The translations under genes and the position numbers were made by a program. This document shows positions 7,065-26,849 of a DNA stretch of 64,000 bases, piece by piece. The notes beneath the pieces were generated by a model. The model saw only the letters and a list, made by a program, of their open reading frames with translations. It did not search any database and was not told the origin of the DNA. Position 1 is the first letter of the stretch. Each line of letters opens with the position of its first letter. The stretch comes from Nitrosomonadales bacterium. Its GTDB lineage: Bacteria; Pseudomonadota; Gammaproteobacteria; Burkholderiales; Gallionellaceae. Location: contig JACRAT010000005.1 of assembly GCA_016234685.1 (NCBI GenBank), positions 1 to 64,000 of the forward strand, read 5' to 3'.

Positions 7065-7182
7065 ACTCCCTTCTCCCGCAGGCGGGAGAAGGGTTGGGGA
7101 TGAGGGGCTGTGAATGTTCGCAAATTGCGTTCATGCGCAACATCCCTCACCCCAACCCCTCTCCCGCTTGCGGGCGAGGGGC
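7065..7182. repeat. palindromic repeat pair between nifE and nifN
   Basis: Two copies of a GC-rich hairpin unit face each other: 7065-7107 (CTTCTCCCGC-AG-GCGGGAGAAG then TTGGGGATGAGGGG) and 7143-7182 (CCTCACCCCAACCCCTCTCC... GCGGGCGAGGGG). The spacer is about 35 bp. The same composite arrangement recurs around the DUF559 gene at 19119-19239 and 19607-19718. Confidence 0.75.
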
Positions 7183-7202: not shown

Positions 7203-8612
7203 ATGGCTGAGATCCTAAAGCGCAACAAAGCCCTCGCAGTGAATCCGCTGAAAGCCAGCCAGCCTATCGGCGCATCGCTGGCCTTTCTGGGCATCAACAA
7301 AGCCATACCGATGCTGCACGGTTCGCAGGGTTGCACGGCTTTCGGCAAGGTGTATTTCGTGCGCCATTTCCGCGAACCCATCCCCTTGCAGACCACGGCG
7401 ATGGATCAGGTCTCTACGGTGATGAGCGCCGACGAGAACGTGATCGAAGGCTTGCGGGCGATCTGCGAGAAGAGCAAACCGGCGCTGATCGGCCTGCCGA
7501 CGACGGGGCTATCGGAGACGCAAGGCACGGACATCAAGCGGCTGGTGAGGGATTTCTACGCGGCGCATCCTGAGTATGCGCACATCCCGGTGGTGCCGGT
7601 GAACACGCCGGATTTCACCGGCTGTCTGGAGAGTGGGTATGCGCTGGCGGTGAAGGCAGTATTTGAAACATTGCTCCCCACGATCGCTCCCCCCCCCGCA
7701 AGCGGGGGCGCTGTCGGTAAGCGCAAAAAACAAATCAACATCCTCGCCGGCTCCTTCCTTACCCCCGGCGACATCGAGCATATCAAGGAGTTGGTCGAGG
7801 CTTTCGGTTTGCGTCCGCTGGTGTTGCCGGACATCGCCGATTCGCTGGACGGCCATCTGACCGAGCAGGAGAGCAGTCCACTGACCTTGGGCGGCACGCC
7901 GGTCGGCGAGATCGCCAGCATGGGCGAGTCCATCGCCACGCTGGTGCTAGGCGATTCTCTGAACGAGGCGGCAGACGTGTTGCAGGCGCGCACTGGCGTG
8001 CCGGACTATCGCTTTGCCAGTCTGATGGGGCTGGATGCGGTGGATTCCTTCGTTGCGGCACTGGCCGAGATCAGCGGCAAGCCTGTACCGGAGAAGATCG
8101 AGCGCCAGCGCGCGCAGTTGCAGGACGCGATGGTGGATGCGCATTTCATGCTGGGCTTCGCCCGCGTCGCCATCGCCGCCGATCCTGATCTGCTCTACGG
8201 TTTTGCGCGGTTGGTGGCCGAGATGGGCGGCGAAGTGGTGGCCGCCGTCGCACCCGCCCGCGCCAATATCCTCAGCGAAGTGACGGCGGACAAGGTCGCC
8301 ATCGGCGATCTGGAAGACTTGGAGACTGCGGCGCGCAGCCAGCACGCCCAACTGGTCATCAGCAACTCGCACGCCGTGGAGACGGCGCGCCGCCTCGGTG
8401 TGCCGCTGCTGCGCGCGGGCTTCCCGCAATACGACCTGCTGGGCGGCTATCAGCGCCTGTGGGTGGGCTATCGCGGCACACGGCAGACGCTGTTCGATCT
8501 GGCCAATCTGCTGGTTGAACACGGTCAGCACGAGCCTGCGCCTTACGTTTCCATCTACAACCAGCGATCAGGAGAAGTCCGTGCGACATCTGCGGCTGGT
8601 TCAACCCATTGA
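7203..8612 (+). CDS. nifN: nitrogenase iron-molybdenum cofactor biosynthesis protein NifN
   Basis: This gene encodes 469 residues and is the partner of NifE in the FeMo-cofactor scaffold. Conserved blocks are [80 protein letters not shown] and [20 protein letters not shown]. The ATG at 7203 follows GGGAG and starts [17 protein letters not shown], as in other NifN. The linker around residues 157-177 (APPPASGGA) is encoded by a palindrome of C and G runs (7687-7711). It looks like the remnant of a repeat that settled in frame in a variable loop. Confidence 0.95.
7687..7711. repeat. palindrome remnant inside nifN
   Basis: CCCCCGC-AA-GCGGGGG, with extra C residues on the left, is the core of the repeat seen at 19119-19161. 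It encodes APPPASGGA in the inter-domain linker of NifN and keeps the frame open. Confidence 0.5.
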
Positions 8613-19118: not shown

Positions 19119-19239
19119 TCCCCCTTCCCCCGCAAGCGGGGGAAGGGCTGGGGATGAGGGGTGTTGCGCACATAAAATCGAGGTTCATTTCTCCAAACCC
19201 CTCACCCCCAACCCCTCTCCCGCTTGCGGGAGAGGGGGG
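19119..19239. repeat. composite palindromic repeat, copy left of DUF559 gene
   Basis: One hairpin unit at 19119-19161 (CTTCCCCCGC-AA-GCGGGGGAAG then GGCTGGGGATGAGGGG), a 35-bp spacer containing GAGGTTCATTTCTCC, and a second, inverted unit at 19197-19239 (CTCTCCCGC-TT-GCGGGAGAG core). The second unit overlaps the 3' end of the DUF559 gene. The same composite recurs in direct orientation at 19607-19718. Confidence 0.8.
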
Positions 19240-19595
19240 CTGGTACAGCATCGGTAGACCTCTTCCATTACTTCCTCTGTTTCTGTGAGCATCTGGTTAT
19301 TCCAGAAGCGTAACACCCGTATTCCTCGGGCGCGCAGCCACGCATCCCGCTGCTGATCGTAGTTCAGCTGTTCGCCATGCTGACCGCCATCCAGCTCAAC
19401 CGCCAGTTTCTTTTCATCGCAATAAAAATCCAGGATGTAGCGCCCTTCCGGGTGTTGCCGCCTGAACTTCACACCTGCCATACGGCGATTACGCAACAGC
19501 ATCCACAACAAGGATTCCGCATCCGTCATTCGCCCCCGCATCTCCCGTGCATAAGCCCGAATATCGTCCGGCAGCTTGTCTGGATAGTGAGGCAT
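19185..19595 (-). CDS. DUF559 endonuclease-domain protein inserted in the hyp operon
   Basis: This gene encodes 136 residues of the DUF559 family, related to Vsr-type PD-(D/E)XK nucleases. Core blocks are MTDAESLLWMLLRNRRMAGVKFRRQ, GRYILDFYCDEKKLAVELDGGQH and RDAWLRARGIRVLRFWNNQ, with the probable catalytic D and ExD residues in DFYC and VELDGGQH. The start at 19595 (MPHYPDKL) is chosen, because upstream codons lie in the repeat. The C-terminal tail ([17 protein letters not shown]) is encoded by the repeat copy. The gene is bracketed by two direct composite repeats and splits hypD from hypE. This suggests that gene and repeat move as a unit. Confidence 0.82.
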   Translation of the reverse strand: MPHYPDKLPDDIRAYAREMRGRMTDAESLLWMLLRNRRMAGVKFRRQHPEGRYILDFYCDEKKLAVELDGGQHGEQLNYDQQRDAWLRARGIRVLRFWNNQMLTETEEVMEEVYRCCTSPPLPQAGEGLGVRGLEK

Positions 19596-19606
19596 AGCGC
19601 GCTCTA

Positions 19607-19718
19607 CGCCCTTCCCCCGCAAGCGGGGGAAGGGCTGGGGATGAGGGGCGGCGCGTGCCTGACAGTGAGGTTCATTTCTCCTAACCCCTAACCCCTAACC
19701 CGCTTGCGGGAGCGGGGA
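19607..19718. repeat. composite palindromic repeat, copy right of DUF559 gene
   Basis: Unit at 19607-19648 (CTTCCCCCGC-AA-GCGGGGGAAG then GGCTGGGGATGAGGGG), a spacer with TGAGGTTCATTTCTCC, and a second unit at 19681-19718 (CTAACCCCTAACCC... GCGGGAGCGGGG). It matches 19119-19239 in the same orientation. The distal unit supplies the last residues (SPLPQAG) and stop codon of hypD. Confidence 0.8.
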
Positions 19719-25570: not shown

Positions 25571-26849
25571 TATCACCTGCGACCTGTTCTGCACCGTCGT
25601 CGATAACTACGGCGACATCGGCGTGTGCTGGCGGCTGGCCAAGAATCTTAGCGCCGAAGGCGTGGCAGTCAGACTGTGGGTGGACGATCTGGTGAGCTTC
25701 GGCAAGCTGTGCCCGGAGTTGGAGGTGACGCTGGAGCGGCAGCAGTGTAAAGGGGTGGAGGTGGTGTGCTGGATCCCTCACCCGACCTGTCGGCCACCCT
25801 CTCCCGCTAGCGGGAGAGGGGCTGGGGGTGAGGGGCTCGGAAGCGAGCGCCCATACGCGAAAGTCACTCCCGCTCAACTCGTCATCGAAGCCTTCGCCTG
25901 CGAGCTGCCGCCAGATTACATCGCGGCGATGGCGATGCTGGCGGAGCCGCCGCTATGGATCAACCTCGAATATCTCTCCGCTGAAGACTGGGTGGAAGGC
26001 TGTCACGGACTGCCTTCGCCGCATCCGACCTTGCCGCTGACCAAGCACTTCTTCTTTCCCGGCTTCACACCGAAGACGGGCGGCTTGTTGCTGGAGCGCG
26101 ATCTGCTGGCACGCCGCGATGCCTTTCAGCGCGACCCGCAAGCCATCGTGGACTACTGGCAGTCGCTCGATCTGCCAGCGCCGCAGCCGGACGAATTGCG
26201 CATCTCACTGTTCGGTTACGAGAATGCTGCCGTGGGCGAGCTGTTGCAAGTCTGGAGTGTGGGCGCGACGCTGGTCACCTGTCTGGTGCCGGAAGGGCGC
26301 ATCCTGCCGCAGGTGGCGCAGTTCTTTGAAACTACCCCCTTCGATGCACTCAGGGTGAGCGGCAGGTTCGTGGGTCGGCACTGGCGGCGTGGCAACTTGC
26401 GCGTGGCGGTGTTGCCCTTCGTCGAACAGGAGCGCTACGACTACTTGTTGTGGGCGTGCGACGTGAATTTCGTGCGCGGCGAGGATTCTTGCGTGCGGGC
26501 GCAATGGGCGGCGAAGCCTTTCGTCTGGCAGATCTATCCGCAACACGACGGCGTGCATCTGGAAAAGTTACAGGCGCTGGCGGCGCGTTACTGCGCAGGC
26601 TTGTCGCCCGAGGCGGCGGAGGCGCTGACACAGTTGTGGCAGGCCTGGAATGTGGAACAGGGGGCGGCGCTGGCCTGGGGGCGATTCGCCGCGCAGCGCG
26701 AGGGGCTGACGCAGCACGCCATGCGCTGGTCCGGGCAGTTGGCGGGCAACAATCTGGCTTTGAATTTGCTGGATTTTTGTCGCAAAGCGGGTAGAATGCG
26801 CGCCTTCGAATTTAGCCCCTTAAACCCTTTTCAAGGACAGATGAAATGA
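25563..26849 (+). CDS. earP: EF-P arginine rhamnosyltransferase EarP, with repeat-encoded insert
   Basis: This gene encodes 428 residues, against about 370-390 for the family. EarP transfers rhamnose from dTDP-rhamnose to Arg32 of EF-P, which relieves ribosome stalling at polyproline. The N-terminal [17 protein letters not shown] (with the catalytic-region aspartates) and the C-terminal [20 protein letters not shown] (nucleotide-sugar site, E about residue 306) are intact. Residues about 72-92 ([18 protein letters not shown]) are encoded by a palindromic repeat at 25776-25835. The start codon lies in another repeat. Its stop overlaps efp (ATGA), so the modifier and its target are coupled. Confidence 0.93.
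25776..25835. repeat. palindromic repeat inside earP
   Basis: CCTCACCC... on the left and GGGGGTGAGGGG on the right flank the core CTCTCCCGC-TA-GCGGGAGAG. It is the same family as the repeats around the DUF559 gene. The whole element is read in frame in earP. Confidence 0.75.

Follow-up and report, generated by a model that had tools for sequence, protein, structure and literature searches.

A DUF559 gene between composite repeats

The window analysed here, a stretch of 64,000 nucleotides, carries a DUF559 gene on the minus strand at 19185–19595, between hypD and hypE (HypD and AIRS domains). The gene encodes 136 amino acids from its ATG, in a frame that stays open up to a TTG at 19622; it matches PF04480 (E = 7 × 10−40, Pfam) and is classed as a predicted Vsr-like nuclease of the PD-(D/E)XK/EDxHD type. 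A reading made from the sequence alone had described its flanks as copies of one hairpin unit with the same spacer and the same orientation, and the description holds. Composite units at 19120–19239 and 19608–19717, each made of two hairpins, repeat one another in direct orientation over 93 nt (86% identity, spacing 487), and both contain the spacer motif GAGGTTCATTTCTCC on the plus strand, at 19180–19194 and, in equal orientation, at 19667–19681. Translation likewise bears out that the repeat encodes the tail of the nuclease (its last approximately 18 residues) and the end of HypD (SPLPQAG).

In each half-unit a purine tail follows a C/G-rich hairpin and fits the purine-motif rules for a third strand (G on GC; A or T on AT), which makes the half-unit a potential intrastrand triplex. 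On the 3′ side of the gene, our script finds one perfect purine-motif triplex motif, on the minus strand at 19198–19237 (hairpin CCCCTCTCCC..GGGAGAGGGG, third strand GGGTGAGGG), and one with a single third-strand mismatch, on the plus strand at 19120–19161 (hairpin CCCTTCCCCC..GGGGGAAGGG, tail GGGGATGAGGGG). The plus-strand half-unit 5′ of the gene (19608–19648) is nearly identical to the second of these, and the minus-strand half-unit at 19680–19717, degenerate by eye, encodes the last residues and the stop of HypD. Stem sequences differ widely among genomes and the architecture is kept; an A/T-containing stem in another genome (L028; AAAGAGGGG with GGGGAGATTT) obeys the third-strand rule by eye.

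E. coli repeats with an intrastrand triplex motif have been on record since the 1990s. BoxC/PIT motifs of this kind were described in E. coli and more than 260 genomes, and the available part of that report gives triplex folding of the E. coli motif in vitro and instability around the motifs by a mechanism that it leaves unclear (Holder et al. 2015, PMC4666352). A Watson–Crick stem with a third strand obeying G*GC, A*AT and T*AT is what we find, window unit included, and on sequence grounds the window repeat is a potential triplex of this known class. Rfam yielded no family at the gathering score, and the sub-threshold matches were to microRNA models.

The window holds 7 occurrences of the core CCCGCWWGCGGG, where shuffles give an expectation of 0.07, and the 2.35-Mb genome has it at 23 places (reversed control, 0). 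Gene-less copies had been claimed for nifE–nifN and earP, and both are there. The first, at 7068–7181 with no strand assigned, lies between two nitrogenase-type genes (nifE–nifN position) and has the order hairpin–tail–spacer–tail–hairpin with inward tails, which is the plan of the gene-bearing unit with a short spacer replacing the gene; the second, on the plus strand at 25775–25834, is in frame within EarP and has a T-type third strand. A single plus-strand hairpin at 7687–7710 is also in frame, within the second nitrogenase-type gene.

The source genome (G000) has three DUF559 genes, all three with repeats on both sides. The second (L002) is in frame within a MetG gene, and the third (L003) precedes nadA, named by eye, and has a different palindrome. 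This locus (G000:C16) and L321 represent another DUF559 subfamily, flanked by the palindrome CCCCCTTT..AAAGGGGG with a possible purine third strand after a long loop. The source genome also has a RAYT gene (L217, G000:C15) with its own, different REP family.

Flanks of DUF559 genes across bacteria

We searched for PF04480 in 232 genomes of the class, of which 76 had a match and 53 a match with E < 10−15, and added 80 named loci from other genomes, out of at least 570 confirmed DUF559 stretches, as well as 6 of the 45 plasmid records with a DUF559 match; three phage records also had a match. We left out weak or partial matches (scores under about 44 bits), most of which were fragments or domains within very long frames, and five stronger matches that were partial or near contig ends (G165:C290, G094:C7, G094:C83, G026:C220 and G196:C7). 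Loci were set aside when their flank was shorter than 120 bp or had many N (1 of 72 in the class sample with the source genome, 0 of 6 from plasmid records and 4 of 80 elsewhere), and 23 of the 30 RAYT loci used for comparison were long enough for the flank test. Two records in the plasmid collection (PLSDB) are chromosome-sized entries from E. coli (L094, 4.9 Mb) and N. gonorrhoeae (L095, 2.2 Mb).

By the sequence-only reading, its model would fall if DUF559 genes in general lacked flanks of this kind, and the reverse is the case. Flanks were called paired when their best left–right 250-bp alignment exceeded the 99th percentile of shifted windows, which was the case at 119 of the 153 DUF559 loci and 4 of 391 shifted controls. 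Both flanks had hairpin stems of 9 bp or longer at 0.61 of the DUF559 loci compared with 0.00 (rounded) of the controls. With a script that requires perfect 8-nt triplets and arms and scores motifs within 250 bp of the gene, a triplex motif lies beside 116 of the 153 loci, on both sides in 69, compared with 9 of 391 and 0 of 391 for the controls; a perfect triplex motif is missing at 37 loci and paired flanks at 34. At YraN, another small nuclease-like gene, neither paired flanks (0/30) nor perfect triplex motifs (0/30, same script) were found, and we rejected a generic effect of small genes. As a positive control, RAYT loci do show paired flanks, formed by REPs of their own, in 19 of 23 cases, and the same script found no triplex motif there (0/23).

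Within the class sample and the source genome, the motif occurs at 52 of 71 loci, on both sides at 31, and in 35 of 45 families. Among the loci from other genomes it was found in Pseudomonadota (41/53), Nitrospirota (5/5), Chloroflexota (4/4), Thermodesulfobacteriota (3/5) and Myxococcota (1/2), at single loci in Planctomycetota, Nitrospinota and two candidate phyla, and not at the one locus from Actinomycetota (0/1). The DUF559 gene of N. gonorrhoeae (L095) has a long repeat with a CTCTCCCTGTGGGA core on both sides. By eye, five DUF559 units (L061, L062, L065, L068 and L085) seem to lie in frame within restriction-modification-like subunit genes.

Anatomy of the unit

Of 207 sides, 172 have the third strand pointing towards the gene, and 60 of the 77 two-sided loci have this orientation on both sides. 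From outer stem to outer stem the units have a median length of 443.5 bp (10–90% range, 406–514; n = 86), which leaves room for the DUF559 gene only and for no recognised transposase. The ends form terminal inverted repeats, as seen in the inward-facing pairs and in the window's congener G232, where they are 26-bp perfect inverted repeats, each of them near-palindromic. In the window copy and its hyp-site relatives, the gene lies between two complete motif pairs with outward tails adjoining it. Outward tails on both sides are found at 5 of the 77 two-sided loci, and this minority arrangement could come from a tandem unit.

Beyond the outer stems we found weak sequence preferences only, a T before and an A after in about half of the 86 units. 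No target duplication is visible at the ABC-transporter/FtsX site, where the alleles have diverged. Duplications above the control threshold occur at 12 of 177 loci and 2 of 151 controls, and most consist of spacer or repeat sequence; sequence that looks like a duplicated host gene start flanks the unit at only 2 of the 177 loci, and we rejected a long target-site duplication as a general signature. At those in genomes G243 (L306) and G246 (L315), approximately 30–70 bp of the start of the downstream host gene is doubled and flanks the unit on both sides.

Occupied and empty sites among relatives

Empty sites in relatives, for which the sequence-only reading had suggested a search, were found at three positions. 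The junction of an ABC-transporter gene with an FtsX gene is empty in the source genome and holds a unit in its congeners G232 and G233. The hypD–hypE site is occupied in the source genome and in G254 and G255, and hypD lies directly before hypE in other species of the genera of the latter two and in several further genera. Three genomes carry a unit with the gene in the linker of metG, at two different positions, one other genome has an in-frame gene-less motif there, and the congeners G233 and G240 have neither form. In this family the linker (L275–L304) looks like a hot spot: peptides encoded by in-frame triplex motifs, such as PSPLTPLPQAGEG, occur there both with and without a DUF559 domain.

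On a HypE tree, the occupied hyp sites need three changes, and a single clade is rejected (p-AU = 0.0027). Loss and gain are not separable at this site, and either may have produced its pattern, as may transfer of the whole hyp region; site occupancy in general could reflect loss or transfer of a whole region. Within the set compared, the hyp-site and metG-site nucleases are mutual nearest relatives. Across the loci that were read, DUF559 nucleases lie at many unrelated sites and are not confined to one kind of site.

Nuclease type and third-strand letter

One letter of the third strand varies among loci (GGG-A/T-GAGGG). We placed this letter, as read from the flanks of each gene, on a tree of 90 nucleases (63 T, 27 A) drawn from 95 loci with a readable letter, after removal of 3 with mixed flanks and 2 with a broken or short protein; the palindrome type of L003 and L321 was left out. 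The letter needs 2 changes on this tree compared with 23.4 for shuffled letters (0 of 500 shuffles as low). It was built from few columns, leaves many forks open and had a bootstrap that did not settle; the number of changes is also 2 over the bootstrap range. The A side of the tree mixes Pseudomonadota, Planctomycetota and Myxococcota hosts.

Repeat copies in the rest of the genome follow the same division. Among 20 class genomes picked by label (leaving out G143, labelled T by L087, and G192 and G201, which have mixed flanks), the nuclease type predicts the letter of the copies in 17 of the 18 single-type genomes; when only genomes with 10 or more copies are taken, it does so in 11 of 12 (T, 8 of 9; A, 3 of 3). 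At most 3% of the copies are A-type in 12 of the 13 T-labelled genomes, G007 being the exception, and all five A-labelled genomes are mostly A-type (60 of 65 copies). Both genomes with two nuclease types carry both letters (14 of 52 and 47 of 129 copies A-type). Each label rests on those loci whose letter could be read, and further DUF559 genes in these genomes had no readable letter; the copy counts include the gene's own flanks, which dominate where copies are few (all 3 in G114). A-type copies were counted through the reversed-pattern control, since the A motif is mirror-symmetric and matches it; in G070, the only two-type genome for which all rows are listed, this count and the number of A rows agree (14 = 14).

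Close relatives repeat the pattern: copies are T-type in genomes with T-type nucleases (16/16 in G255, 24/28 in the source genome) and A-type in those with A-type nucleases (4/4 in G233, two of them the gene's own flanks; 31/32 in G251, in which two of five DUF559 matches were read), and G232 and G254, with both nuclease types, have mixed letters. Other measures of co-variation gave little: a Mantel test of nucleases against stems by 3-mers was weak (r = 0.17, P = 0.013), and the A fraction of stems by nuclease subclass was not significant (P = 0.52).

Repeat load of genomes

At least three copies of the CTCTCCC..GGGAGAG hairpin occur in 37 of the 53 DUF559 genomes compared with 19 of the 179 others, which are those with no strong DUF559 match (Fisher's exact test, P = 10−16). 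The count covers this one stem type, so that DUF559 genomes with other stems score negative, and 16 of the 53 have fewer than three copies. The expectation that genomes full of the repeat would not be found without the gene is therefore correct for the most part and fails in some cases. The one contig of G071 has 24 hairpin copies and no DUF559 match. G080 (92 copies) and G152 (9 copies) have no strong match; their congeners G190 and G020 have DUF559, a pattern consistent with DUF559 loss. In G043, 61 CTCTCCC hairpins without a DUF559 match, several of them at contig ends, may be part of a longer repeat.

With RAYT presence set at E ≤ 10−25 (90 of the 232 genomes; the curated figure is 107), DUF559 predicts hairpin load both in genomes with RAYT (odds ratio 15.7) and in those without it (odds ratio 22.2). 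Together with the missing triplex motifs at RAYT loci, this led us to reject RAYT as the mover of the repeat.

The enzyme and its E. coli relative

An AlphaFold2 model of the window nuclease (mean pLDDT 87.5) matches NGO0050 of N. gonorrhoeae (3hrl; Z = 16.2, 47% identical), the homing endonuclease I-Bth0305I (Z = 11.9), Vsr (Z = 9.6) and, more weakly, TnsA (Z = 6.6). As modelled, the fold is Vsr-like (PD-(D/E)XK, EDxHD type). Residues E16, D45, E56, D58, H62 and D69 of A1 are invariant in 20 sequences, and these acidic and histidine columns presumably map to the catalytic E, D, H, D motif. PADLOC gave a weak match of DpdF (E = 3 × 10−7) to the nuclease domain. Caulobacter cells lacking a cytosine methyltransferase reportedly depend on the DUF559 protein VsrA for their DNA damage response, and the authors, in the available part of their report, propose mismatch repair (PMC12907096), which would weigh against the mobile-element reading given below. 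This phenotype is consistent with an active nuclease.

In E. coli the DUF559 gene, ycjD, lies between sapF and fabI, beside which box C was probably first named. A 2-kb sapF–ycjD–fabI query was at least 80% covered in 3,362 of 5,426 genomes, and genomes matching it did so at a median of 4 places; one of the listed matches is a 41-nt repeat piece alone. Units of the BoxC plan, one of them with TTA as the second loop, lie 3′ of ycjD and on that side only, and no motif there passes the triplex script. YcjD has been placed in the PD-(D/E)XK superfamily, with a profile that detects Vsr, according to the part of that study available (PMC1189080). We considered E. coli as a source of a clean empty site and rejected it, as the four strains lacking ycjD whose sequence we read carry efflux genes there (compare PMC12817139), which is a replacement and no simple empty site.

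Discussion

The specificity of the flanks, their orientation, the narrow unit size, presence and absence at sites, multiple copies and the matching of nuclease type with third-strand letter are established by comparison of sequences. They suggest that DUF559 genes are probably the coding core of small mobile elements of approximately 0.4–0.5 kb, with triplex-forming ends and nuclease-assisted mobilisation. The sequence-only reading had proposed that the nuclease mobilises the repeat family; association, site polymorphism and co-evolution support this in part, and we infer the cutting and the transfer. That reading had recognised neither the BoxC/PIT class of the repeat nor the wide variation of its stems under a constant architecture.

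The ends of such an element would be inverted on the two sides, with the C/G-rich hairpin outermost and the purine third strand facing the gene. Short gene-less versions, with two motifs and a short spacer or with one motif, would be its non-autonomous relatives, as REPINs are to RAYT. The nuclease would recognise the folded or the duplex end, acting in trans, and would cut at or near the base of the outer hairpin; host repair or replication would then join or copy the unit elsewhere. The joining might follow a transposition-like single-strand route or homing-type break repair, and the nearest folds allow both. A bolder version, tentative and in our judgement rather doubtful, is that DUF559 proteins are structure-specific nucleases that read the A- or T-type third strand of folded ends exposed on single-stranded or supercoiled DNA and so drive a new transposition route; they would then be the movers, so far unrecognised, of BoxC/PIT-type repeats across bacteria, and YcjD would be the E. 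coli representative.

The same enzyme could instead spread by homing, with the nuclease cutting gene-less alleles or repeats and break repair installing the gene and its motifs; no transposition would be involved, and gene-less motifs would be leftovers of repair or deletion. The nearest fold outside DUF559 is indeed that of a homing endonuclease (I-Bth0305I, Z = 11.9), the same sites (hypD–hypE, metG linker and ABC/FtsX) are occupied in several genera, the nucleases at the hyp and metG sites are each other's closest relatives in the set compared, and the occupied hyp sites are not one clade. We nevertheless consider homing unlikely, because the nucleases lie at many unrelated sites and motif copies run to tens per genome in many genomes, and because vertical inheritance with loss could also yield same-site relatives.

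Another agent might move the triplex motifs, with breaks made by DUF559 serving as insertion hot spots and the gene a passenger. The narrow length of the units, their inward orientation and the match between nuclease clade and motif letter are all unexpected from random insertion at breaks, and make this explanation quite improbable even though hairpin-rich genomes without DUF559 exist and VsrA is needed for the DNA damage response of a methyltransferase mutant in the part of that report available (PMC12907096).

The motifs might also be kept for control, as terminators, regulators or recombination-stalling sites of the nuclease gene. C/G-rich hairpins beside genes often are terminators; the in-frame motifs inside metG, earP and, by eye, restriction-type genes, the many copies elsewhere in genomes and the absence of motifs from YraN and RAYT genes nevertheless leave a control role with very little probability. 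That RAYT transposases also mobilise the triplex repeats is scarcely credible: the source genome has a strong RAYT and RAYT genomes are richer in hairpins (odds ratio 3.7), but that RAYT is flanked by a different palindrome, RAYT flanks have their own paired REPs (19/23) and no triplex motif (0/23), and DUF559 predicts hairpin load in genomes without RAYT (odds ratio 22.2).

DUF559 elements, read as small mobile units with triplex-forming ends, share features with several known systems. C/G-rich double palindromes of similar appearance are RIME1 of rhizobia and Bru-RS of Brucella; we know of no link of either with a nuclease gene, and C/G-rich hairpin units flank a DUF559 gene on pSymB of Sinorhizobium. 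Rickettsia palindromic elements also lie in frame within protein genes, as here, and to our knowledge have no association with a nuclease. In RAYT/REPIN systems, too, one enzyme gene lies between palindromic repeats with further copies in its genome, and gene-less paired units exist. However, RAYT is a tyrosine (Y1/HUH) transposase and DUF559 a Vsr-like nuclease, and the DUF559 repeats have a triplex third strand and usually enclose the gene within one pair. With Vsr, I-Bth0305I and, more distantly, TnsA, DUF559 shares its fold and presumably the invariant acidic and histidine columns; unlike them, it appears to stand alone as a small nuclease gene and has terminal repeats of its own.

The closest resemblance is to the BoxC/PIT motifs, which share the hairpin with a purine third strand, some close inverted pairs and multiple copies, and whose type A has the TTA second loop of the BoxC-plan unit 3′ of ycjD (PMC4666352). 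The E. coli motifs are intergenic only in the available part of that report, which mentions near the motifs no transposase or integrase remnants and no mobility functions (PMC4666352), whereas here copies lie in frame within proteins and a nuclease gene lies inside or between the motifs. Our literature search, of open-licence papers, found no earlier description of a link between DUF559 and a repeat. DUF559 elements are not RAYT/REPIN systems, by their enzyme, nor insertion sequences with a recognised transposase, nor a one-site homing element.

These results point to an undescribed kind of mobile DNA. DUF559, a small and widespread family of unknown function, gains a candidate substrate, and a widespread triplex repeat gains a candidate mover. 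If the proposal is true, it would account for the extra in-frame segments in MetG and EarP, and DUF559 would perhaps be a natural enzyme that reads DNA triplexes. As RAYT/REPIN is unrelated in both enzyme and repeat, the pairing of an enzyme with its own palindromic ends would then be an independent invention.
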